Assembly: GCF_927797785.1 (NCBI RefSeq)
Contig: NZ_CAKMLL010000062.1
Span: 1-64,000 of the forward strand
Reading direction: 5' to 3'
DNA from: Candidatus Nitrotoga sp. BS
Lineage (GTDB): Bacteria > Pseudomonadota > Gammaproteobacteria > Burkholderiales > Gallionellaceae
DNA: 64,000 bases
The notes below the pieces were generated by a model, which saw nothing but the letters and a program-made list of their open reading frames with translations, did no database searches and was not told the DNA's origin. Below, one piece after another: positions 36,730 to 44,595 of this stretch (the first letter of the stretch is position 1; every line of letters starts with the position of its first letter). The translations under genes and the position numbers were made by a program.

Positions 36730-37605
36730 ATGAGTGCCAGCAGTTCACCAGTTAATCTGAAAGACGCTATACAACGCCTGGACACGCTGCCAACTATGCC
36801 AGCTATCGCTCAGAAGATTCTCGCCCTTGATCTTGAAAGCGACGAGGGTGAACGGACAATGCTCAAACTAGTTGAAAAAGACCCACAGATCGCTGCGAAG
36901 CTTATCGGCTTGGCAAACACGCCTTTATTCGGTGCCTCCAGACGTGTCTCCTCTGTTACAGACGCTTCGATGTTACTTGGCATTACACGCGTCAAAGCTG
37001 TCACCTTGGGTATTGCGGTGATGTCATCAATGATAAAGGAACCTGTGGGTAAGCTGGATGCTCAAGGTCTCTGGTTACACAGCTTGGCTATTTCTTTGGC
37101 TGTGAGAATCATTTCACAAGCTATGCCGCGCAACACACGCCCTCTCGACGACGAAATATTTTTGGCGGGACTGCTGCATGATATCGGCTATATGGTGCTG
37201 AATTATCTCGACCAGAAACGTAGTGATGAATTACAGACCCAATTTATTTCTCAACCGGATCGACCTTCCGCTGAAATCGAAGCCGAACTGCTGGAAATGA
37301 ACCACTGTGAACTGGGTGCCGAGCTAGCCCGCTTTTGGAATCTACCGGAAAGCATCATTGCAGTGTTGCGCTACCACCATGACCCTGACAATGAGCTTGC
37401 GGCTATTGGCCAACCGTTGGTCAGCATGGTTAACATCGCGGAAAAAGTGCTAGTCGCCTTCGGCATTCCAGAGCATGGGCCAACCGAAATCAGTCCTGGA
37501 GAGTGGCAAGCTTTGGGCATTGATCCGTCAAAGGCAGATGACTTGATAACGCAGATTAACAAGCAGGCGGAAGAAGCGCGGCAGGCAGCAGCTAATTTAT
37601 CCTAA
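36730..37605 (+). CDS. HDOD domain signalling protein
   Basis: A 291-residue protein that is almost entirely an HDOD domain, a catalytically altered HD-like fold. LDTLPTMPAIAQKIL near the start, GASRRVSSVTDASMLLGITRVKAV, FLAGLLHDIGYMVLNYL and VLRYHHDP are typical. HDOD proteins act in signalling and cell-cycle or motility control; there is no fused receiver or GGDEF domain here. A very good GGAGG stands 5 bp before the ATG. Convergent with the Mrp-like operon. Confidence 0.88.
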   Translation: MSASSSPVNLKDAIQRLDTLPTMPAIAQKILALDLESDEGERTMLKLVEKDPQIAAKLIGLANTPLFGASRRVSSVTDASMLLGITRVKAVTLGIAVMSSMIKEPVGKLDAQGLWLHSLAISLAVRIISQAMPRNTRPLDDEIFLAGLLHDIGYMVLNYLDQKRSDELQTQFISQPDRPSAEIEAELLEMNHCELGAELARFWNLPESIIAVLRYHHDPDNELAAIGQPLVSMVNIAEKVLVAFGIPEHGPTEISPGEWQALGIDPSKADDLITQINKQAEEARQAAANLS

Positions 37606-37666: not shown

Positions 37667-39346
37667 TCAAACTGTCGGGGAGTGCGCCACCAGCAGCAGC
37701 GCACATGCCAGGGCGACAAGCACAAACAACCACAAGCCCCCAACCAGCGGCCAGTTGCACAGAATTTTCTCCAAGTGACAGATTCTGGAGATATATACCA
37801 GCGCAGCGGGAAAGACTCTTTTTGATCGGAATGAATAGGGTAAGGAAACACGGCGCAGGGTAGCCGCCGCCCGTTCCAGCCACACCAACACATCCCCCGG
37901 CGGGATGGCCGGGCCACGCCATCCGCGCCACCAAGCGGCATAGGCGAGAAGTGCGACCACGAGCATCGGCCAAGCCGCAGATACCAGACCCGAGCCAGAC
38001 AGCACTGCTACCACGGTGCTGTCATCGGCTTGCATCCAGGCCAGTGCCGCTACCGCCGTCAGCACCACCAGCCAAGGTGGCAACAGGCCGATACCGTCAT
38101 CCTGCTTGCCTCCACTAGGTGTCAACAGCAGAAAGCGGACCATGAGCATACCTGTACCCACGGCGGCCAGGGGTAAGGTCCAGGCCAGTAGTTCCGGCCA
38201 GGGCGTGGGCAGTCCCGCCAAGGCAGCCTTCAATTGCGTCTTGGCGAGCGCACCACTGGTGAACGGCGCGCCTGCCAAGGCCAGGGCGGGCAGCAGCAGG
38301 CCTGCCATCACCCAGCCGTTGCGACCGAACCGCTGCGCCACCCCCACGCCCAGGAACAATGCGCCCTTGGCCAAACCATGATGCAGGGAATATAGGCCAA
38401 TCGCCGGCAGCAGCAGAGACCATGCCTTCGGCAGCAACAGGCCGGCACCCACGGCCAGGGTCATGAGGCCCATCTGGCTGATGCTGGAATAGGCCAGTAG
38501 TGTTTTCGGCTGTCGCTGTACCAGCCCTGCCACGACCCCAAAGAACGCCGCAAAAAGACCCAGGCCCAGTATCACCGCACCCAATGCTGGCACGGTCGCC
38601 TCGCCCAGAGGCAGGAAACGCAGCCAACCCAGCAAACCTGCCTTGATCATGGCTCCGGAAAGCACAGCGGAGGCCGGCGTGGGCGCGACTGGGTGCGCAA
38701 GTGGCAGCCACATATGCAGCAACGGCACCCCGGCCTTGACGCCAAAGCCCAGAAACAATAAGGCATAGGCAAGATTGGGCATCTCCATTGCCGCTGCCCG
38801 CGCCATTTCCGGCAGAAAGTGAGTTTGCGCCGCCCCTGCCAGCAGGAGCAAACCAGCGATAAGCAGTGCTTCTCCGAGCACCGCCATGATGAGATAAACC
38901 CGCCCGGCTCGCCGCGCCTCGGCATCGCCCTCGTGCACCACCAATCCATAAGCTGCGAAGGTCATTACCGCGAAGGTGAGATAGAAACTGGCCGCATCCA
39001 TCGCCAGGCATACCCCCAGGTTGCCACTCAGGGTGGCCAGAAAAAAGGCGATAAAGATATGTCGGCGCGGATCCTTGGCCAGATAGCTGTGGGCATATAA
39101 CCCTGCCGTCAACCACAACAAGGCGGTGAAAAACAGAAACAAGCGCCCAGTTTCATCCAAACCGAAACGACTGCCCAGCAGAAGCCAGGGTATATCTAGC
39201 GTGTAAGCATCGGGTGCCACCAGCGAAAATGCCAGGCCCGGTAACGCTGCCCAAGGCGCCAGCAGCATACCCATGCGCCGAGTAGCCGGGAGCAGCACCA
39301 GTCCGGCTAGCAGCAGTGGGAGAATGAGGACAATTGACAGGTTCAT
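37667..39346 (-). CDS. Mrp-like antiporter subunit, third NuoL/M/N homologue (TM5 Glu missing)
   Basis: A 559-residue polytopic protein of the proton-conducting NuoL/M/N-MrpA/D family, last gene of the cluster. The TM7-8 block GVKAGVPLLHMWLPLAHPVAPTPASAVLSGAMIKAG keeps the conserved lysines. At the place where the sister subunits have ELL in TM5 (YELLTLS, LELLGLA) this protein reads TFAVMTFAAYGLVVH, so the ion-pathway glutamate seems replaced by alanine. About 14 or more helices are expected, and a C-terminal extension ends with a hydrophobic helix. The ATG overlaps the previous stop (ATGA), so 39346 is chosen. A structural or altered-specificity role is inferred. Confidence 0.85.
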   Translation of the reverse strand: MNLSIVLILPLLLAGLVLLPATRRMGMLLAPWAALPGLAFSLVAPDAYTLDIPWLLLGSRFGLDETGRLFLFFTALLWLTAGLYAHSYLAKDPRRHIFIAFFLATLSGNLGVCLAMDAASFYLTFAVMTFAAYGLVVHEGDAEARRAGRVYLIMAVLGEALLIAGLLLLAGAAQTHFLPEMARAAAMEMPNLAYALLFLGFGVKAGVPLLHMWLPLAHPVAPTPASAVLSGAMIKAGLLGWLRFLPLGEATVPALGAVILGLGLFAAFFGVVAGLVQRQPKTLLAYSSISQMGLMTLAVGAGLLLPKAWSLLLPAIGLYSLHHGLAKGALFLGVGVAQRFGRNGWVMAGLLLPALALAGAPFTSGALAKTQLKAALAGLPTPWPELLAWTLPLAAVGTGMLMVRFLLLTPSGGKQDDGIGLLPPWLVVLTAVAALAWMQADDSTVVAVLSGSGLVSAAWPMLVVALLAYAAWWRGWRGPAIPPGDVLVWLERAAATLRRVSLPYSFRSKRVFPAALVYISRICHLEKILCNWPLVGGLWLFVLVALACALLLVAHSPTV

Positions 39347-40854
39347 GGCAGCCAATACAGATATTCACGATCGGCGATCAGCTTGACCCAGTTCAGAGGC
39401 GACATCGCGCTGGCGGCGAACAAACCCACAAGCACTGTGGCAACGGCGGTGACGAGTGGCGGGACGAGCAGCAGCCAGGCGGTCTCACGTCCGTTTTGCA
39501 TCGGTATGTGCTCCCCCGGCCACGCTTCCGTTCGCGGCTGAAACCAGACCCGGTACAAGACCGGTAGGAAGTAGGCTGCATTGAGCAGGCTCGATGCCAG
39601 CAGCACCGCAATCACCCAGGGCATCTGCGCCTCCAGAGCACCCAAGCCCAGATACCACTTACTAATGAAGCCGGCGAGCGGCGGCAAGCCGATCATGCCG
39701 AAGGCGCCGATCGTGAAGGCGGCAGTGGTCCACGGCATGCGCCGGCCGACGCCATCCATCTCGCTGATCTTGTGGATGCCCAAGGTCTCGGCATAATTGC
39801 CAGCACAAAAGAATAACGTAATCTTCATGATGCCCTGATGTACCAGATGCACCATGCCTCCGATGGTGGCCATCGGGCCGAAGATGGCCACTCCCAGAGC
39901 GATGTAAGATACCTGGCTGATGGTGGAATAGGCCAGGCGCCGTTTTAGATCGTCCTGAAATAACGCGCACAACGACCCCCAAATGATGGTAACCGAGGCC
40001 ATTACGGCCAGCGGCATCAGCAAATGCAGCGACTGGGCGAATTCCACGCCATAGACGTCGTACACCACGCGCACGATACCGAAAGCACCAGCTTTCACTA
40101 CTGCCACAGCATGCAGCAACGCCGATACCGGCGCCGGCGCCACCATCGCCAGGGGCAACCAACCATGCAGTGGAACCAGAGCGGCCTTCACCCCCAACCC
40201 GGCGATGAGCAGAAAGAAGATGACCTGCAACTGGCCGGTGTATTCCGGCCCCAAAGCCGCTAACATGCCGCCCTGGGTAAACTCCACCTGTCCGGCCAGG
40301 CCGTACAGCCAGACGGTGCCGATCAGGAGCAGCGCGCCACCACCGAGGGTGTAGGAGAGATAGACCTGTCCCGCACGCATGGCCTGTTCAGTGCCGCGAT
40401 GCACCACCAGCGGATAGGTGGACAGGGTCAAAAGTTCGTAGAAAACAAAAAAAGTGAACAGATTGCCTGCCATCGCCACCCCCATGGTGGCGGTGACGCA
40501 CAGACTGAAGAAACCGAAGAAACGACTGCGATGCGGCGAGCCTTCCATGTAGCCGATGGCATACAGCGTGGTCAGGAACCACAGTGCCGCCGAAAGGGTA
40601 ACGAACAGCATAGCCAACGCATCGGCCTTGAAAACCAGATCCAGCCCGGGCAGGATGGTATGGCGGAAGATATATTCCTCGCCGAGCATTACACCTCTCA
40701 GTATGTAAAAGATGAGCAGTAACTTCAAGGTCGCGCCGACCATGTTGAACAGGTTACGCAGGCCGCGCCGCTCCTCGGGCAAAGTGAAGATGATCAGGCC
40801 TGGCAGTAGAGAACTGACCAGCACCAGCAGGGGCAGGGTTTCGTTGAGACTCAT
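39343..40854 (-). CDS. Mrp-like antiporter subunit, second NuoL/M/N homologue
   Basis: A 503-residue polytopic antiporter-like subunit. TM5 carries the conserved glutamate (FFVFYELLTLSTYPLVVH), TM7-8 has GVKAALVPLHGWLPLAMVAPAPVSALLHAVAVVKAG, and the broken-helix region AYSTISQVSYIALG is present. All residues of a working proton channel seem in place. Start MSLNETLP overlaps the preceding stop by 4 bp. Family members move H+ against Na+ in Mrp complexes or pump H+ in complex I and Mbh-type enzymes. Confidence 0.88.
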   Translation of the reverse strand: MSLNETLPLLVLVSSLLPGLIIFTLPEERRGLRNLFNMVGATLKLLLIFYILRGVMLGEEYIFRHTILPGLDLVFKADALAMLFVTLSAALWFLTTLYAIGYMEGSPHRSRFFGFFSLCVTATMGVAMAGNLFTFFVFYELLTLSTYPLVVHRGTEQAMRAGQVYLSYTLGGGALLLIGTVWLYGLAGQVEFTQGGMLAALGPEYTGQLQVIFFLLIAGLGVKAALVPLHGWLPLAMVAPAPVSALLHAVAVVKAGAFGIVRVVYDVYGVEFAQSLHLLMPLAVMASVTIIWGSLCALFQDDLKRRLAYSTISQVSYIALGVAIFGPMATIGGMVHLVHQGIMKITLFFCAGNYAETLGIHKISEMDGVGRRMPWTTAAFTIGAFGMIGLPPLAGFISKWYLGLGALEAQMPWVIAVLLASSLLNAAYFLPVLYRVWFQPRTEAWPGEHIPMQNGRETAWLLLVPPLVTAVATVLVGLFAASAMSPLNWVKLIADREYLYWLP

Positions 40855-42293
40855 GTTGCCCCCAGCAAGCTCAATACCTCGCCGCCGCCTAGCCCCAAAA
40901 CGAGACTGGCCAGGGCGAGCAGTAAAACGGGCCACTCCAACATGCGCGGCAAAAGTTTGAAATTCGCTGTCTCCTCGACTGGCAGAAAGGCCTGGCGCAA
41001 CACCTTGAATATGTAGGCTGCGGAGAGCAGGCCGCCCACCACCATCACCACGATCCACCACCATTGCCCGCTGGCCTGCGCCGCACCCAGCAGCAGCCAC
41101 TTCGCAGCAAAACCGCCCGACGGTGGCAGACCCATGATCGTCACGCCGGCTAGCGCGAAGGTGAACAGGGTCAGTGGCAGGCGCGCAGCCACGCCGGCGA
41201 TGCCTGATATCTCGTCGCGCCCGGTGGCGATGATCATCGCCCCTACCGCCGCGAACATGGCAGCTTTCGCCAGCCCGTGCGCAACCACCTGCAGCACGCC
41301 ACCCTGCCAGGCGCTTGCCGCTACCTCCGCCGATACCCCTGTAGCGAGCGGGAAAAGCAAAAATAGATAGCCTATCTGCGCCACTGTGGAATAGGCCACC
41401 AACATCTTCAGATGGGTCTGCCGTAGCGCCAGAAACGAACCCCAGAGTATCGCGGCAGCACCCAGCGCGCCTAGCAACTGTGCCGCCGCAACGCTGGTGA
41501 TGGGTTCAAACAGATCGAACCACAACCGCAAGATGAGATAGAACGAGGCCTTGATTACGAGGGCCGAGAGCAGGGCCGACACCGGCGCCGGCGCGCCGCC
41601 ATGAGCGGGCGGCAACCAGATGTGGAAGGGAAACAGTGCGGTCTTGAGCATCAACCCAAGTAGCATCAGTGCCGCTGCCAGCGACACCACTGCGGGCGCA
41701 TCCGCAGCGATCAAGGGTATCAGCGCCGCCAGTGATACGCTACCGTAAACGCCATAGAGCAGCGCTACACCCAGAAGGTAGGCGCCGGAACCGAGCAAGG
41801 CGGCCAGAAGATAGCGCATGGCCGCCGTGATTGGCCCTGCTCCGCCCGCCAATGCCACCAGCCCCACCGCTGCCAGACCGAGCAACTCCAGCGTAACGTA
41901 AATATTGAACACATCGGCAGACAGGAACAGCGCGTTCATGGCTGCCAACAGATAACCGGTCAGCGGCCAGAAATATCGCAGGGAATTGGCATGACCTGCG
42001 AAGTAGGCGCGCGCGTAAAAAACGAGCGGCAAAGCCACTGTTTGGGTCAGCAACAGCATCACCGCGCTGAGTCCGTCGGCCATTAGGTCGATACCCAGCG
42101 GCGCGCCCCAGCCGCCGACGGCGTACACGCGCACGCCGCCGGCCACGATCTGCTGCGCCAGCATTGCCGCCAAGGCAAGTTGCAGTATCAGGCCCGCCAC
42201 AGGCAGTCGGCCACCCTGCCCCGGTCCATGCACAAAGGCCAGGGTCGCCCAGATCAAGGGCGACAGGATCAGCCAGGGAATGGGATCAAACAT
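40851..42293 (-). CDS. mrpD: Mrp-like antiporter subunit D
   Basis: A 480-residue NuoL/M/N homologue placed right after the MrpC-like gene, as MrpD is in Mrp and MbhH is in Mbh clusters. TM5 glutamate is in NIYVTLELLGLAAVG, and TM7-8 is KTALFPFHIWLPPAHGGAPAPVSALLSALVIKAS. The TM12 region AYSTVAQIGYLFLL is conserved. About 14 helices are expected. Its ATG lies 8 bp inside the MrpC-like gene, so the two are coupled. Confidence 0.9.
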   Translation of the reverse strand: MFDPIPWLILSPLIWATLAFVHGPGQGGRLPVAGLILQLALAAMLAQQIVAGGVRVYAVGGWGAPLGIDLMADGLSAVMLLLTQTVALPLVFYARAYFAGHANSLRYFWPLTGYLLAAMNALFLSADVFNIYVTLELLGLAAVGLVALAGGAGPITAAMRYLLAALLGSGAYLLGVALLYGVYGSVSLAALIPLIAADAPAVVSLAAALMLLGLMLKTALFPFHIWLPPAHGGAPAPVSALLSALVIKASFYLILRLWFDLFEPITSVAAAQLLGALGAAAILWGSFLALRQTHLKMLVAYSTVAQIGYLFLLFPLATGVSAEVAASAWQGGVLQVVAHGLAKAAMFAAVGAMIIATGRDEISGIAGVAARLPLTLFTFALAGVTIMGLPPSGGFAAKWLLLGAAQASGQWWWIVVMVVGGLLSAAYIFKVLRQAFLPVEETANFKLLPRMLEWPVLLLALASLVLGLGGGEVLSLLGAT

Positions 42294-42606
42294 CCAGCCT
42301 GTCCTTTCCCGACTTTTCTTCCGGCAGTCGCATCTCGCCGCTCATATCCAGCAGTTGCCGCGCCAGTGCCAAGGCCAGGGCAGTGGCGGCGATAGCGACG
42401 ACGATACCGGTCAGCACCATAGCCTGAGGTACGGGGTCGGGGGTGCCGGCGCGCTGGGCCAGACCAACCATCACCAAGAAAATACCGCTGCCCATGATGT
42501 TAAAGGCAAGAATCTTACGCAACAAATGTGGCTGTAGTATTAAGCCAGCCACGCCGAGGACAAACAGCGCCGTGCCGGTGAGGGCGTAAACCAAGGCAGC
42601 GTTCAT
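42286..42606 (-). CDS. mrpC: Mrp-like subunit C (NuoK homologue)
   Basis: A 106-residue protein with three membrane helices, homologous to NuoK. LVYALTGTALFVLGVAGLIL, then LLRKILAFNIMGSGIFLVMVG, then DPVPQAMVLTGIVVAIAATALALAL is the MrpC/MbhG/NuoK pattern. The DPVPQAMVLTGIVV motif is the family signature. A polar C-terminal tail follows. Start 42606 overlaps the previous stop (ATGA). Confidence 0.92.
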   Translation of the reverse strand: MNAALVYALTGTALFVLGVAGLILQPHLLRKILAFNIMGSGIFLVMVGLAQRAGTPDPVPQAMVLTGIVVAIAATALALALARQLLDMSGEMRLPEEKSGKDRLDV

Positions 42607-43271
42607 GCCTGAGCCCTCGAATCGGCCAGTATGAGATAAAGCCCGGCCAGTATGAGGCCAAGCGAAAAAGTCAGGCTTGCCTCGATCATTAAGATCAGCG
42701 CACCGGCCCAGCCGGGCGGATATTGCAATAGGGTGCCTTGCGCCATGAGCGCTACCGCTACCGCGATAAAGACCAACAAGCCAACCGCGAGCCCGGCGCG
42801 CAATGTCCGACCCGGCGTGACCCAAGCTGGCAGCAGGCCGGCCAGATGCAAAAGCACCCCTGCCCCAGCCAACACCGCCCCAGCTTGGAATGCGCCGCCT
42901 GGCCGGTGCGCCCCCGCCCACAATATATAACCTGCTACCAGCAGCATCAGTGGAACCAGCACCCGGGCCAGGGTTTGCAGCACCGGGTTGGCGGTGAAAG
43001 GGCGATGTTGGTGGTCGGACACGTGACGCGGCAAGGCCAGAATGCCTAACAGAGCCAGCAGCAATACGGCTATCTCCAGTAATGTATCGTAGCCGCGAAA
43101 ATTGAGCAGCACCGCAGTCACCGGGTGCACCACGCCGCTCATGTCGAGCTGCGCCGTTAGCTGTTCCGGCAGGTTCACGGCGGCAACCGGTAGGTCCAGT
43201 ATTGCCCAGCCAAGGGCCAAGCCGAACGCACCGGCCAAAAACAGTACCGCGACATTCAACAGGGTTTTCAT
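42603..43271 (-). CDS. mrpB: Fused MbhE-like + MrpB subunit
   Basis: A 222-residue protein joining two modules. Residues ~1-85 (ending VTAVLLNFRGYDTLLEIAVLLLALLGILAL) match the C-terminal MbhE-like part of MrpA. Residues ~100-215 (LVPLMLLVAGYILWAGAHRPGGAFQAGAVLAG and TLSLGL-like end) match MrpB/MbhF. In classical Mrp operons the first part belongs to MrpA. ATGA overlap with the preceding DUF4040 gene fixes the start at 43271. Confidence 0.88.
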   Translation of the reverse strand: MKTLLNVAVLFLAGAFGLALGWAILDLPVAAVNLPEQLTAQLDMSGVVHPVTAVLLNFRGYDTLLEIAVLLLALLGILALPRHVSDHQHRPFTANPVLQTLARVLVPLMLLVAGYILWAGAHRPGGAFQAGAVLAGAGVLLHLAGLLPAWVTPGRTLRAGLAVGLLVFIAVAVALMAQGTLLQYPPGWAGALILMIEASLTFSLGLILAGLYLILADSRAQA

Positions 43272-43516
43272 GGAGACTGCTCCTGCCGTTTCTTGTGCAG
43301 ATGCGCTACTGCATCGAGCAGTAGCGCCCCAGTGAGGCCTGCGCCAATGGCTGCTTCGGCCAGGGCGATATCGGGGGCGTCCAGGCGCGCCCAGGCCAGC
43401 GCCATGAGCAGTCCGAAGACGATAAACAACACCACTGCACGAAACAAGTCTGGCGTGGTAAGCACTCGCACAGCACTCCACAATAGGGCGGCGACCAGCA
43501 ACAGGTCGAAGATCAC
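43268..43516 (-). CDS. MbhD-like (DUF4040) subunit, split-off piece of MrpA
   Basis: An 82-residue protein with three hydrophobic stretches. FRAVVLFIVFGLLMALAWARLDAPDIALAEAAIGAGLTGALLL is the DUF4040/MbhD signature that in Mrp lies in the C-terminal domain of MrpA. Start is GTG at 43516, overlapping the MrpG stop (GTGA arrangement); the frame extends upstream without a better signal. Together with the next gene it forms the lateral half of MrpA as separate polypeptides. Confidence 0.88.
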   Translation of the reverse strand: MIFDLLLVAALLWSAVRVLTTPDLFRAVVLFIVFGLLMALAWARLDAPDIALAEAAIGAGLTGALLLDAVAHLHKKRQEQSP

Positions 43517-43827
43517 AGCTCGTGCTCCTCGGGTTTCCAAGGTGAGATACCCTTGGCGAAAGCGCGTCGGGCGATCAGAAAACTCAGCGTAGCGCTGGCG
43601 GCCAAGGCCAGCAGCCAAACCAGGATCAGCTTTAATCCCGCCGCCACGCCGGGCGCCTGGAGCACCAGTCCGAGCACAGTGAAACCCAGACCCAGGTTGT
43701 CCGCCTTGGCCAGAGCATGCAGCCGGGTGTACACATCCGGAAAGCGCAGCAGGCCCACCGTACCGGCCAGGAAAAATGCGGCGCCAATAATCAGTAGCAC
43801 CGCGCTCGATAAATCAAGAATGTCCAT
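43513..43827 (-). CDS. mrpG: Mrp-like subunit G
   Basis: A 104-residue three-helix protein: SAVLLIIGAAFFLAGTVGLLRFPDVYTRLHALAKADNLGLGFTVLGL carries the MrpG/MbhC signature GLLRFPDVYTRLHA. Start MDILDLSS at 43827, 14 bp inside the MrpF-like gene. Followed directly by the DUF4040 gene. Confidence 0.93.
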   Translation of the reverse strand: MDILDLSSAVLLIIGAAFFLAGTVGLLRFPDVYTRLHALAKADNLGLGFTVLGLVLQAPGVAAGLKLILVWLLALAASATLSFLIARRAFAKGISPWKPEEHEL

Positions 43828-44086
43828 TGCTCTCCCTCCCCCATACCCGTCGAACGAAGGCGGCGCCGGTGATGACAGCCAGCAGGGCGAACACCAGTGC
43901 CACATCTACCAGTGTCTGCCCTCCCCCCGCATAAGCCAGTAGTAATAGCACCGCCACGCCCATGGTGCCGAACAGCAGTGCGGCCAGCAAGCGATCGGCG
44001 GGTGTCGGCCCGCGCGCGATTCGCCACAGCGCCGCCAGCAGGTTTATGAGCAGGAATACGGCAAGGATCAAATAAAGGTCAGTCAC
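43814..44086 (-). CDS. mrpF: Mrp-like subunit F
   Basis: A 90-residue three-helix protein. The signature RIARGPTPADRLLAALLFGTMGVAVLLLLAYAGG is that of MrpF/MbhB, and VDVALVFALLAVITGAAFVRR follows. The start is GTG 44086, overlapping the MrpE stop as GTGA. The same frame is open far upstream (to 44545) antisense to nothing but inside MrpE, so the GTG start is preferred on coupling and length. Confidence 0.9.
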   Translation of the reverse strand: MTDLYLILAVFLLINLLAALWRIARGPTPADRLLAALLFGTMGVAVLLLLAYAGGGQTLVDVALVFALLAVITGAAFVRRVWGRESNGHS

Positions 44087-44595
44087 AGTTCCTCCAGAGG
44101 CAAGCTCAACATGCGCGCGATGCACACCTCGGCCTCGTGCACTCCGCTTTCCACCGGGATCCGTTTGTCCAGCAGGTGCATCCGCAAATATCTGCCCTCC
44201 AAGCCGATACTCAAAGTGCCGGGCAGCAGGTTCAGAGTATTGGCCAGTAAGACGCGCGAACGCCCCTCCGGCAAGCGCATCGTAATATCGAGCACGGCGG
44301 GGCGCAAGTCGAGGCGGGGACGCAGGGCTATGAGGGCCACTTGAACGCCGCCCTTTACTGATTGCACCAGAAAAAAACCGAGAAAGCCCGCAAGTCCGGT
44401 CAAGGACAGTCGGGATGTGCCAGGTGGGAACAGGATGAGACTGGCCACCAAGGCCAGAATGACGCTCACCAGCCCCACGCCCCAAGCAACGAAATTGCCT
44501 TCTGTCAGAATCCACCACAGCGCGGTGAATAAGGTAGCGCGCCAAACCAATACTTTAATTGGATATTTCCGGGGAGTATTCAGAGGATTTTGCAT
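44083..44595 (-). CDS. mrpE: Mrp-like subunit E
   Basis: A 170-residue protein with two N-terminal hydrophobic helices (WRATLFTALWWILTEGNF; VGLVSVILALVASLILF), a third helix, and a cytoplasmic domain with VLLANTLNLLPGTLSIGLEG, the MrpE/MbhA signature. First gene of the nine-gene membrane module, 91 bp downstream of a P-type ATPase gene on the same strand and likely in the same transcript. Confidence 0.92.
   Translation of the reverse strand: MQNPLNTPRKYPIKVLVWRATLFTALWWILTEGNFVAWGVGLVSVILALVASLILFPPGTSRLSLTGLAGFLGFFLVQSVKGGVQVALIALRPRLDLRPAVLDITMRLPEGRSRVLLANTLNLLPGTLSIGLEGRYLRMHLLDKRIPVESGVHEAEVCIARMLSLPLEEL

Follow-up and report, generated by a model that had tools for sequence, protein, structure and literature searches.

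The window analyzed here is a stretch of 64,000 nucleotides from Candidatus Nitrotoga sp. BS (contig NZ_CAKMLL010000062.1), and our subject is an operon of nine genes within it that encodes a putative Mrp-type antiporter of unusual ion sites. The genes lie head to tail on the minus strand, from position 44595 down to 37667, with overlapping start and stop codons, in the order E-F-G-MbhD-(MbhE+MrpB)-C-D1-D2-D3 (Table 1). The nine coupled genes described in a first-pass annotation of the sequence are confirmed by these overlapping codons and by Pfam, which finds the families MNHE, MrpF_PhaF, PhaG_MnhG, MbhD, MnhB and Oxidored_q2 and three proteins of the Proton_antipo_M family. On the fifth protein the MnhB match is over the cut-off and the accompanying MbhE match is weak; the identities of the MbhD protein and of the MbhE-MrpB fusion are also backed by matches to solved structures. 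By Pfam and solved-structure matches together, the operon has the full set of Mrp domains B, C, D, E, F and G, as well as the MbhD/MbhE part found at the C-terminus of MrpA.

Table 1. The nine genes of the operon, with positions in the window (aa, amino acids; TM, transmembrane helix)
Product	Position	Strand	Features	Basis
MrpE (MnhE), 170 aa	44083..44595	-		PF01899, 77.4 bits, over cut-off
MrpF, 90 aa	43814..44086	-	GTG start, refined to 44086, overlaps the mrpE stop; Leu37; Asp31 (DR motif)	PF04066; alignment to solved chains
MrpG, 104 aa	43513..43827	-	Ala79 at the group 1 TM3 proline position (P86, A. flavithermus)	PF03334, 84.7 bits; alignment
MbhD/DUF4040 protein, 82 aa	43268..43516	-	GTG start, refined to 43516; Glu54 within Mbh-type motif DIALAEAAIGAG	PF13244, 70 bits
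MbhE-MrpB fusion, 222 aa	42603..43271	-	Asp62 and Glu66 in RGYDTLLE	PF04039, 51.4 bits; PF20501, 26.2 bits (cut-off 27)
MrpC (NuoK-like), 106 aa	42286..42606	-		PF00420, 65.2 bits
D1, MrpD/NuoN/MbhH-like channel subunit, 480 aa	40851..42293	-	TM5 Glu and TM7 Lys	PF00361; tree; residues
D2, channel subunit of its own clade, 503 aa	39343..40854	-	ATG start, refined to 40854; NuoL/MrpA-type TM8 His (His248) and His336	PF00361; tree; residues
D3, HyfB/NuoL-like antiporter-fold subunit, 559 aa	37667..39346	-	ATG start, refined to 39346; Ala126 (TM5), Glu159 (TM6), Lys204 (TM7)	Alignments; AlphaFold2; fold matches

The gene order and the fusion had been read as those of the membrane arm of Mbh- and Mbs-type complexes, and comparison with solved structures bears this out. 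Of the eight subunits tested (E was outside the test), seven, namely F, MbhD, MbhE-MrpB, C, D1, D2 and D3, have their best solved match in MBH or MBS. MrpF reaches 31.9 bits and MrpC 40.8 bits (MBS, 6u8y_G), and the MbhD protein scores 43.2 bits with MbhD (6cfw_D) against 15.2 with MrpA (7qru_A). The MbhE-MrpB fusion is best matched by MbsE (6u8y_E, 53.9 bits), for which a fusion of MbhE and MrpB has been described (PMC8415708). MbhH is the best solved match of all three antiporter-like subunits, D1 with 177.2 bits, D2 with 164 and D3 with 83.6. MrpG, with 51.4 bits, is the sole tested subunit nearer to an Mrp.

Neither a hydrogenase-like redox gene nor a NuoH-like adaptor lies inside the operon; the lack of redox genes had been noticed in the first-pass annotation. 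That annotation went on to suggest that the arm might dock with a redox module encoded elsewhere, and in this genome the peripheral arm of complex I or the Hox hydrogenase could be considered. Docking would be in keeping with the Mbh-type order and fusion, with the closeness of seven of the eight tested subunits to MBH or MBS, and with the way in which D2-like and HyfB-like subunits stand in for NuoL in rhizobial-type complex I (PMC9040806). However, the host genome (99.23% complete, 121 contigs), searched with profiles for NuoD, NuoB, NuoH and the NiFe large subunit, holds no usable docking module. PF00346 (NuoD-type) and PF00146 (NuoH-type) were found in the complex I operon only, so that the sole NuoH-type adaptor sits there; PF01058 (NuoB-type) was found in complex I and in a small subunit beside HoxH, which is the only second NuoB-like gene; and PF00374 (NiFe large subunit) was found in HoxH only. 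Nor were NuoH, NuoCD, HyfG or HoxH neighbors seen in any of the 80 related loci described below, in the DNA read, which is short for some loci; NuoB-like genes were sought there via HyfI only. Some weak redox-like matches, NuoI-like in L104 and L115, a HyfI-like piece of 90 aa in L112 and a NuoF-like one in L144, were not counted as a module. We regard docking as highly improbable.

An antiporter arm together with a redox module does occur in a relative of the host. In one genome of the host's family (L157), a D2-like frame of 1281 aa, at about 8.5–9.6 kb on the minus strand, lies near NuoH-, HyfI-, NuoI- and HyfG-like genes.

A large MrpA, in which a NuoL-like N-terminus is fused to the MbhD/MbhE part, was likewise not found in the host genome with PF13244 and PF00361. 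Since PF13244 matched only the 82-aa MbhD gene of the operon, it can be deduced that the genome has no typical mrpA. The PF00361 proteins comprise the L, M and N subunits of complex I (three), D1 to D3 of the operon (three) and one DabB beside DabA. The DabA/DabB pair adjoins a SulP-like transporter (L055), and the host also has a Hox-type hydrogenase (L054). With no mrpA and several mrpD, the operon is a group 3 Mrp, a known class that lacks mrpA, has mrpD in one or more copies, and includes the Mrp parts of MBH and MBS (PMC8415708).

The first-pass annotation had taken this architecture for something out of the ordinary, and on this point it did not hold up. Besides group 3 being an established class, the order MrpEFGBCD1D2D3 is printed in the text for Verruconatronum alginivorum, the table for the same locus giving MrpABCD1D2D3EFG (PMC13274419), and in the group 3 locus of Ca. 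Nitrospira alkalitolerans mrpD is followed by NuoM- and NuoL-like genes (PMC7784846). Our own set of relatives consists of the 80 loci most similar in D2, the best 80 of at least 566 confirmed candidates. The complete order E-F-G-MbhD-MbhE-B-C-D1-D2-D3 is present in 54 of them, seven end at D2, 14 are too short and five are otherwise arranged. Among the seven ending at D2, one (L102) has just 1.5 kb downstream and a broken frame. Judged by their titles, 71 of the 80 are from Pseudomonadota, the others being from Verrucomicrobiota, Kiritimatiellota, Myxococcota, Chloroflexota, Actinomycetota and Binatota, with one unplaced; many belong to halophiles or soda-lake organisms. The same annotated order is also found on a haloarchaeal plasmid. 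Closer to the host, a D2 of 90% identity occurs in one (G061) of 17 other sampled genomes of the genus, with identical gene order, and a sample of the phylum has a D2 of 57–69% identity in 12 genomes besides the host's own, among 398. Among bacteria, membrane arms of the Mbh type that lack a redox module are widespread.

Some loci carry more than one such system or a rearranged one. A second Mrp set, MrpA-type or group 1/2-like, lies alongside in L074, L076, L088 and L112. The plasmid of Rubrobacter radiotolerans (L151) has the order E-F-G-MbhD/MbhE/B-D3-D1-D2, with D3 shifted to the front, and no mrpC was found in it; its D3 has the TM5/TM6 pattern, described below, of the other D3s.

In a quick tree of antiporter-like subunits (93 rows), D1 lies on the MrpD/NuoN/MbhH/MbsH side, with its exact place left open. 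D2 shares a clade with the D2 proteins of distant group 3 operons and with the subunit that, together with a HyfB-like partner, replaces NuoL in rhizobial-type complex I, and D3 stands alone. The question of whether this is simply an ordinary Mrp, raised along with the first-pass annotation, thus has a divided answer: the gene order is common, but no typical mrpA accompanies it, and D1, D2 and D3 stand in clades of their own, outside the MrpA and MrpD of groups 1 and 2. Constraining D1 to group with MbhH/MbsH gave a likelihood 13.55 units higher (p-AU 0.718), and constraining D3 to group with the HyfB-like third subunits gave one 11.97 units higher (p-AU 0.657). As these constrained trees scored better, the free search was suboptimal; both groupings are allowed by the approximately unbiased (AU) test, and neither is shown by it. 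Long branches (L056_D3, DabB, HyfF and the L157 fusion) are a risk in this tree.

The replacement of NuoL just mentioned is seen in complex I operons in L051, L052 and L053 (host's family), L068 and L173, where D2-like and HyfB-like subunits take its place. This arrangement, in green complex I, has been published in PMC9040806, citing Degli Esposti and Martinez Romero.

To compare functional residues, the D proteins of 95 loci were surveyed, that is, the 80 loci, 13 further ones and two on plasmids. Proteins of 350–760 aa with the right best match were kept, which gave 76 D3, 90 D2 and 91 D1; the remainder were truncated, had been fused by the simple open reading frame finder, or lacked the gene. 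D1 and D2 both have the residues expected of proton channels of the usual kind. The TM5 glutamate is present in 91 of 91 D1 relatives and the TM7 lysine in 89 (Arg in two), and D2 relatives have the glutamate in 89 of 90 (Asp in one) and the lysine in all 90. In D2, both His248 (TM8) and His336 are found in 90 of 90. A TM8 histidine is conserved in NuoL and MrpA (PMC4938563); it is not fully specific to D2, as HyfD has one too. The AlphaFold2 model of D2, with a predicted local distance difference test score (pLDDT) of 90.8, is closest in fold to MrpD, MrpA and MbhH, without choosing among them.

D3 departs from the pairing of a TM5 glutamate with a TM7 lysine that is typical of the antiporter-like subunits of complex I and Mrp. 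In an alignment of 77 proteins (the D3 of the window and its 76 relatives), no acid is found at the TM5 position, where 76 proteins have a substitution and one a gap. The replacement is Ala, Ser, Thr, Val or Gly in 75 of the 76 relatives and Ala in the window. The TM7 lysine is nevertheless invariant (77 of 77), and so is an acid in TM6, which is Glu in 62 relatives, Asp in 14 and Glu159 in the window; D1 proteins mostly have Ser and D2 proteins mostly Gly at this position. The three D3 sites align with E144, D178 and K229 of E. coli NuoL. NuoL and DabB also have an acid at TM6, but in the company of the TM5 glutamate and of an arginine three residues earlier, a position taken by Val, Ile, Leu or Met in 77 of 77 D3s. 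Simulations of Thermus Nqo12 describe the pairs Lys216/Asp166 and Arg163/Glu132 (PMC11496545), and the match of these residues to E. coli NuoL rests on a common R-D spacing. By its residues, D3 looks like a NuoL in which the first ion pair is kept and the second is absent, and Glu159 would be expected to contact Lys204. The AlphaFold2 model of D3 has the antiporter fold (pLDDT 91.5), its closest matches being to NuoL (Z 43.3, root-mean-square deviation 4.8 over 481 residues) and to MrpA (Z 41.8, root-mean-square deviation 3.9 over 487).

The first-pass annotation had proposed a three-channel antiporter. Three antiporter-like subunits are indeed present, but because D3 lacks the TM5 glutamate of D1 and D2, the third channel is doubtful. 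It could still be a fully working proton channel, making three conducting subunits, if the TM6 acid took over from the TM5 glutamate; a pair of TM6 Asp and TM7 Lys exists in NuoL too (PMC11496545), the TM6 acid and TM7 lysine are invariant in D3, and the further lysines K235, K327 and K369 are all kept in 59 of the 77 D3s. Yet K235 and K327 are both lost in 14 D3s, 13 of which also lack a lysine at 369 (eight uncharged, five with another charged residue or His), and all 14 keep the TM6 acid and K204. In addition, no D3 was found in six operons (L070, L074, L075, L085, L090 and L106) with 10 kb read downstream; that of L090 is of Dechloromonas type. Since the lysine-poor D3s keep the pair and six operons go without D3, the pair seems to be retained for something other than conduction, at least in the lysine-poor D3s. 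We consider a conducting D3 rather unlikely, if the likeliest of the alternatives.

Third subunits outside this clade differ from D3. Distant group 3 third subunits have the TM5 glutamate in 10 of 10 and at TM7 have Lys in eight and Asn in two, those of rhizobial-type complex I have the TM5 glutamate and a TM7 Asn in five of five, and the haloarchaeal one has the same two residues. As D3 has lost the glutamate and some of the distant proteins have Asn for the lysine, the ion pair has been altered at the third position in at least two ways.

The second departure lies in MrpF. In the Mrp of A. flavithermus, the proposed Na+ path passes MrpF D35, which was called invariably conserved, and the D35L change inactivates fully; in B. 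subtilis MrpF, Glu or Asn at that site had little effect there and was harmful when expressed in E. coli (PMC7419157). The equivalent Asp38 of B. pseudofirmus bound Na+ in simulations, and a second, more direct route has also been proposed (PMC9568556). This general Mrp trait is missing from the window operon, whose MrpF, aligned to solved chains, has Leu37 at the sodium-path position, Asp31 being the aspartate of the DR motif. In the clade, position 37 is Gln in 59 of 71 proteins, Leu in 11 and Asp in one. Outside the clade it is Asn in 12 of 12 distant group 3 proteins (including the haloarchaeon), Asp in three of three group 2 proteins and Asp in four of four solved MrpF/MbhB/MbsB chains. 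The sole aspartate of the clade (L112) probably belongs to the second Mrp set there, which is encoded on the opposite strand, the clade-type MrpF of L112 having been dropped by the length limit. Because the definition of group 3 names no MrpF Asp35, membership in the class is kept and a standard sodium path is not claimed.

MrpG is altered too. P86 of A. flavithermus MrpG is said to face MrpF D35 and was called essential (PMC7419157). At this group 1 proline position most of the clade has Ala and one of 74 rows has Pro, the exception (L088) being a locus with two Mrp sets; all 11 of the distant group 3 rows have Pro. The MrpG of Dietzia is likewise without the TM3 proline.

Other acids of the small-subunit part are retained. 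The DR-motif Asp31 of MrpF, whose equivalent D29 is essential in A. flavithermus (PMC7419157), is kept in 65 of 70 relatives, with Glu in three. Glu54 of MbhD is present in 32 of 32 unfused rows, and a strict motif search recovers it at 53 of the 80 loci that gave an MbhD match; its position is the Mbh-type one, preceding that of Glu687 in B. pseudofirmus MrpA by roughly one turn of the helix. Asp62 and Glu66 of MbhE each occur in 77 of 78 rows, and, judged by spacing rather than by alignment, would correspond to MrpA D792 and E796.

Putting these results together, we favor a secondary antiporter of the group 3 Mrp type that works on its own and whose ion sites are altered, a reading to which we assign a probability of about 0.65. 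Protons would enter down the proton motive force through D1, of MrpD/MbhH type, and D2, with its NuoL/MrpA TM8 histidine, and their entry would power the export, by way of the small-subunit part, of a cation that is most probably Na+ or K+. With Leu in the window and Gln in most relatives, the standard entry at MrpF Asp35 would not be usable, and the cation would bypass it by a shifted route, suggested by the remaining Asp31, MbhD Glu54 and MbhE Asp62/Glu66. D3, shaped like NuoL, would be an accessory subunit at the distal end of the arm and would tune or gate its neighbor D2 via the remaining pair. Having neither the TM5 glutamate nor the TM6 arginine of the second NuoL pair, it is more likely to be a tuner or gate than an equal third channel. 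We infer the assembly of the complex, the position and role of D3, the cation and the direction of transport from sequences and models, and cation/proton exchange itself is the activity that the operon would be predicted to have.

Several observations weigh against this proposal. The MrpF of the window has the D35L-like state that fully inactivated the A. flavithermus Mrp (PMC7419157), and Leu37 is therefore evidence against a standard Na+/H+ exchanger. Its MrpG is without the proline called essential in A. flavithermus, and, as read from the alignment of the window protein, MrpC has Ser40 and Phe43 in place of His37 and His40, which in A. flavithermus lie close to the cation site (PMC7419157). 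The 59 D3s with the full set of further lysines may well conduct, the last 80 residues of the D3 model are weak (pLDDT 52–79), and the literature consulted gave no measured activity for any protein of the operon's clade. Finally, adjoining Ca2+-type pumps and a Na+/Ca2+ exchanger leave the choice of cation open. Given the changed MrpF site, the cation and the exchange itself are less certain than the family name implies.

The surroundings of the operon bear on this choice. Its neighbors include two cation P-type ATPases, a DUF2062 protein, a beta-CASP protein and a universal stress protein, as well as a Na+/Pi cotransporter, a Na+/H+ exchanger with a TrkA domain and a Na+/Ca2+ exchanger family protein. 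The exchanged cation could therefore be Ca2+, or some other cation than Na+ or K+: the sodium-path aspartate of MrpF is replaced, the two P-type ATPases and the Na+/Ca2+ exchanger family protein adjoin, a P-type ATPase is also present in 10 of the 80 related loci (in the DNA read per locus), and PMC5703873 cites an Mrp that exchanges Ca2+ for H+. Against this, the Na+/Pi cotransporter and the Na+/H+ exchanger are nearby as well, and many relatives are, by their titles, the halophiles or soda-lake organisms noted above, which leaves exchange of Ca2+ or the like improbable in our estimate. The G+C content is 52–62% in 2-kb blocks from 38 to 58 kb, above 57% in eight of the ten, and 36–53% in the other blocks of the window; positions 37600–58500 look like an ion-homeostasis island, perhaps an acquired one.

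What looks new is the conserved change in D3 and in MrpF, the class and the architecture being already known. In the open-access literature, so far as its text was accessible, neither the loss of the D3 TM5 glutamate nor the change of the MrpF aspartate was found described. Tentatively, and with less confidence than we attach to the antiporter reading as a whole, these proteins may form an Mrp subtype in which both hallmark ion sites have been rebuilt. MrpF Asp35 would have become Gln or Leu along with MrpG Pro86 becoming Ala, and the D3 carboxylate would have shifted from TM5 onto TM6, so that the pair of NuoL Asp178/Lys229 type alone remains. Such a subtype might use another route or another cation, with D3 as an electrostatic gate and no proton channel. 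If so, a natural protein separates two functions that models of complex I treat as one.

Two matters are debated, namely the way in which antiporter-like subunits couple to one another in complex I and Mrp and the place where the cation crosses Mrp, and buried carboxylates are central to the models (PMC11496545, PMC9568556, PMC7419157). This type of operon offers a natural test, as the MrpF of the window normally carries the very residue by which a group 1 Mrp was inactivated. The D3 proteins form a series of their own, from those with the full lysine set, through those that have lost the channel lysines and kept the ion pair, to operons in which D3 is absent.

Among known systems, the Mrp of Verruconatronum alginivorum shares with the operon both the several mrpD and the gene order (PMC13274419), and that of Ca. 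Nitrospira alkalitolerans shares the several mrpD and the two NuoM/NuoL-like genes after mrpD (PMC7784846). For these two, compared by description only, loss of the D3 TM5 glutamate or of the MrpF aspartate is not described in the accessible parts of the two papers. The stand-alone Mrp of P. furiosus, mrpEFGBB'CD, is also of group 3, begins with E-F-G, has MbhD/MbhE in place of the MrpA C-terminus and has no redox module, but it has one antiporter-like subunit and a fusion of MbhD with MbhE, where the operon has three such subunits and a fusion of MbhE with MrpB (PMC8415708).

The Pyrococcus MBH and MBS have the membrane-arm order in common with the operon, and MbsE has its fusion (PMC8415708). 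Unlike them, the operon has no hydrogenase-like or NuoH-like genes and has two additional antiporter-like subunits, and their MrpF equivalents keep the aspartate that its own MrpF has lost. With the group 1 and 2 systems (mrpABCDEFG and mrpA'CDEFG) the operon shares the component domains and the DR-motif aspartate of MrpF; it differs in lacking a large MrpA, in gene order, in its extra D subunits and in the altered positions of MrpF Asp35 and MrpG Pro86. The rhizobial-type green complex I has two MrpD-like subunits instead of NuoL, the first of which shares a supported clade with D2 and is followed by a HyfB-like one (PMC9040806). In contrast to the operon it is a full NADH dehydrogenase, and its second extra subunit keeps the TM5 glutamate and has Asn for the TM7 lysine in all five cases.

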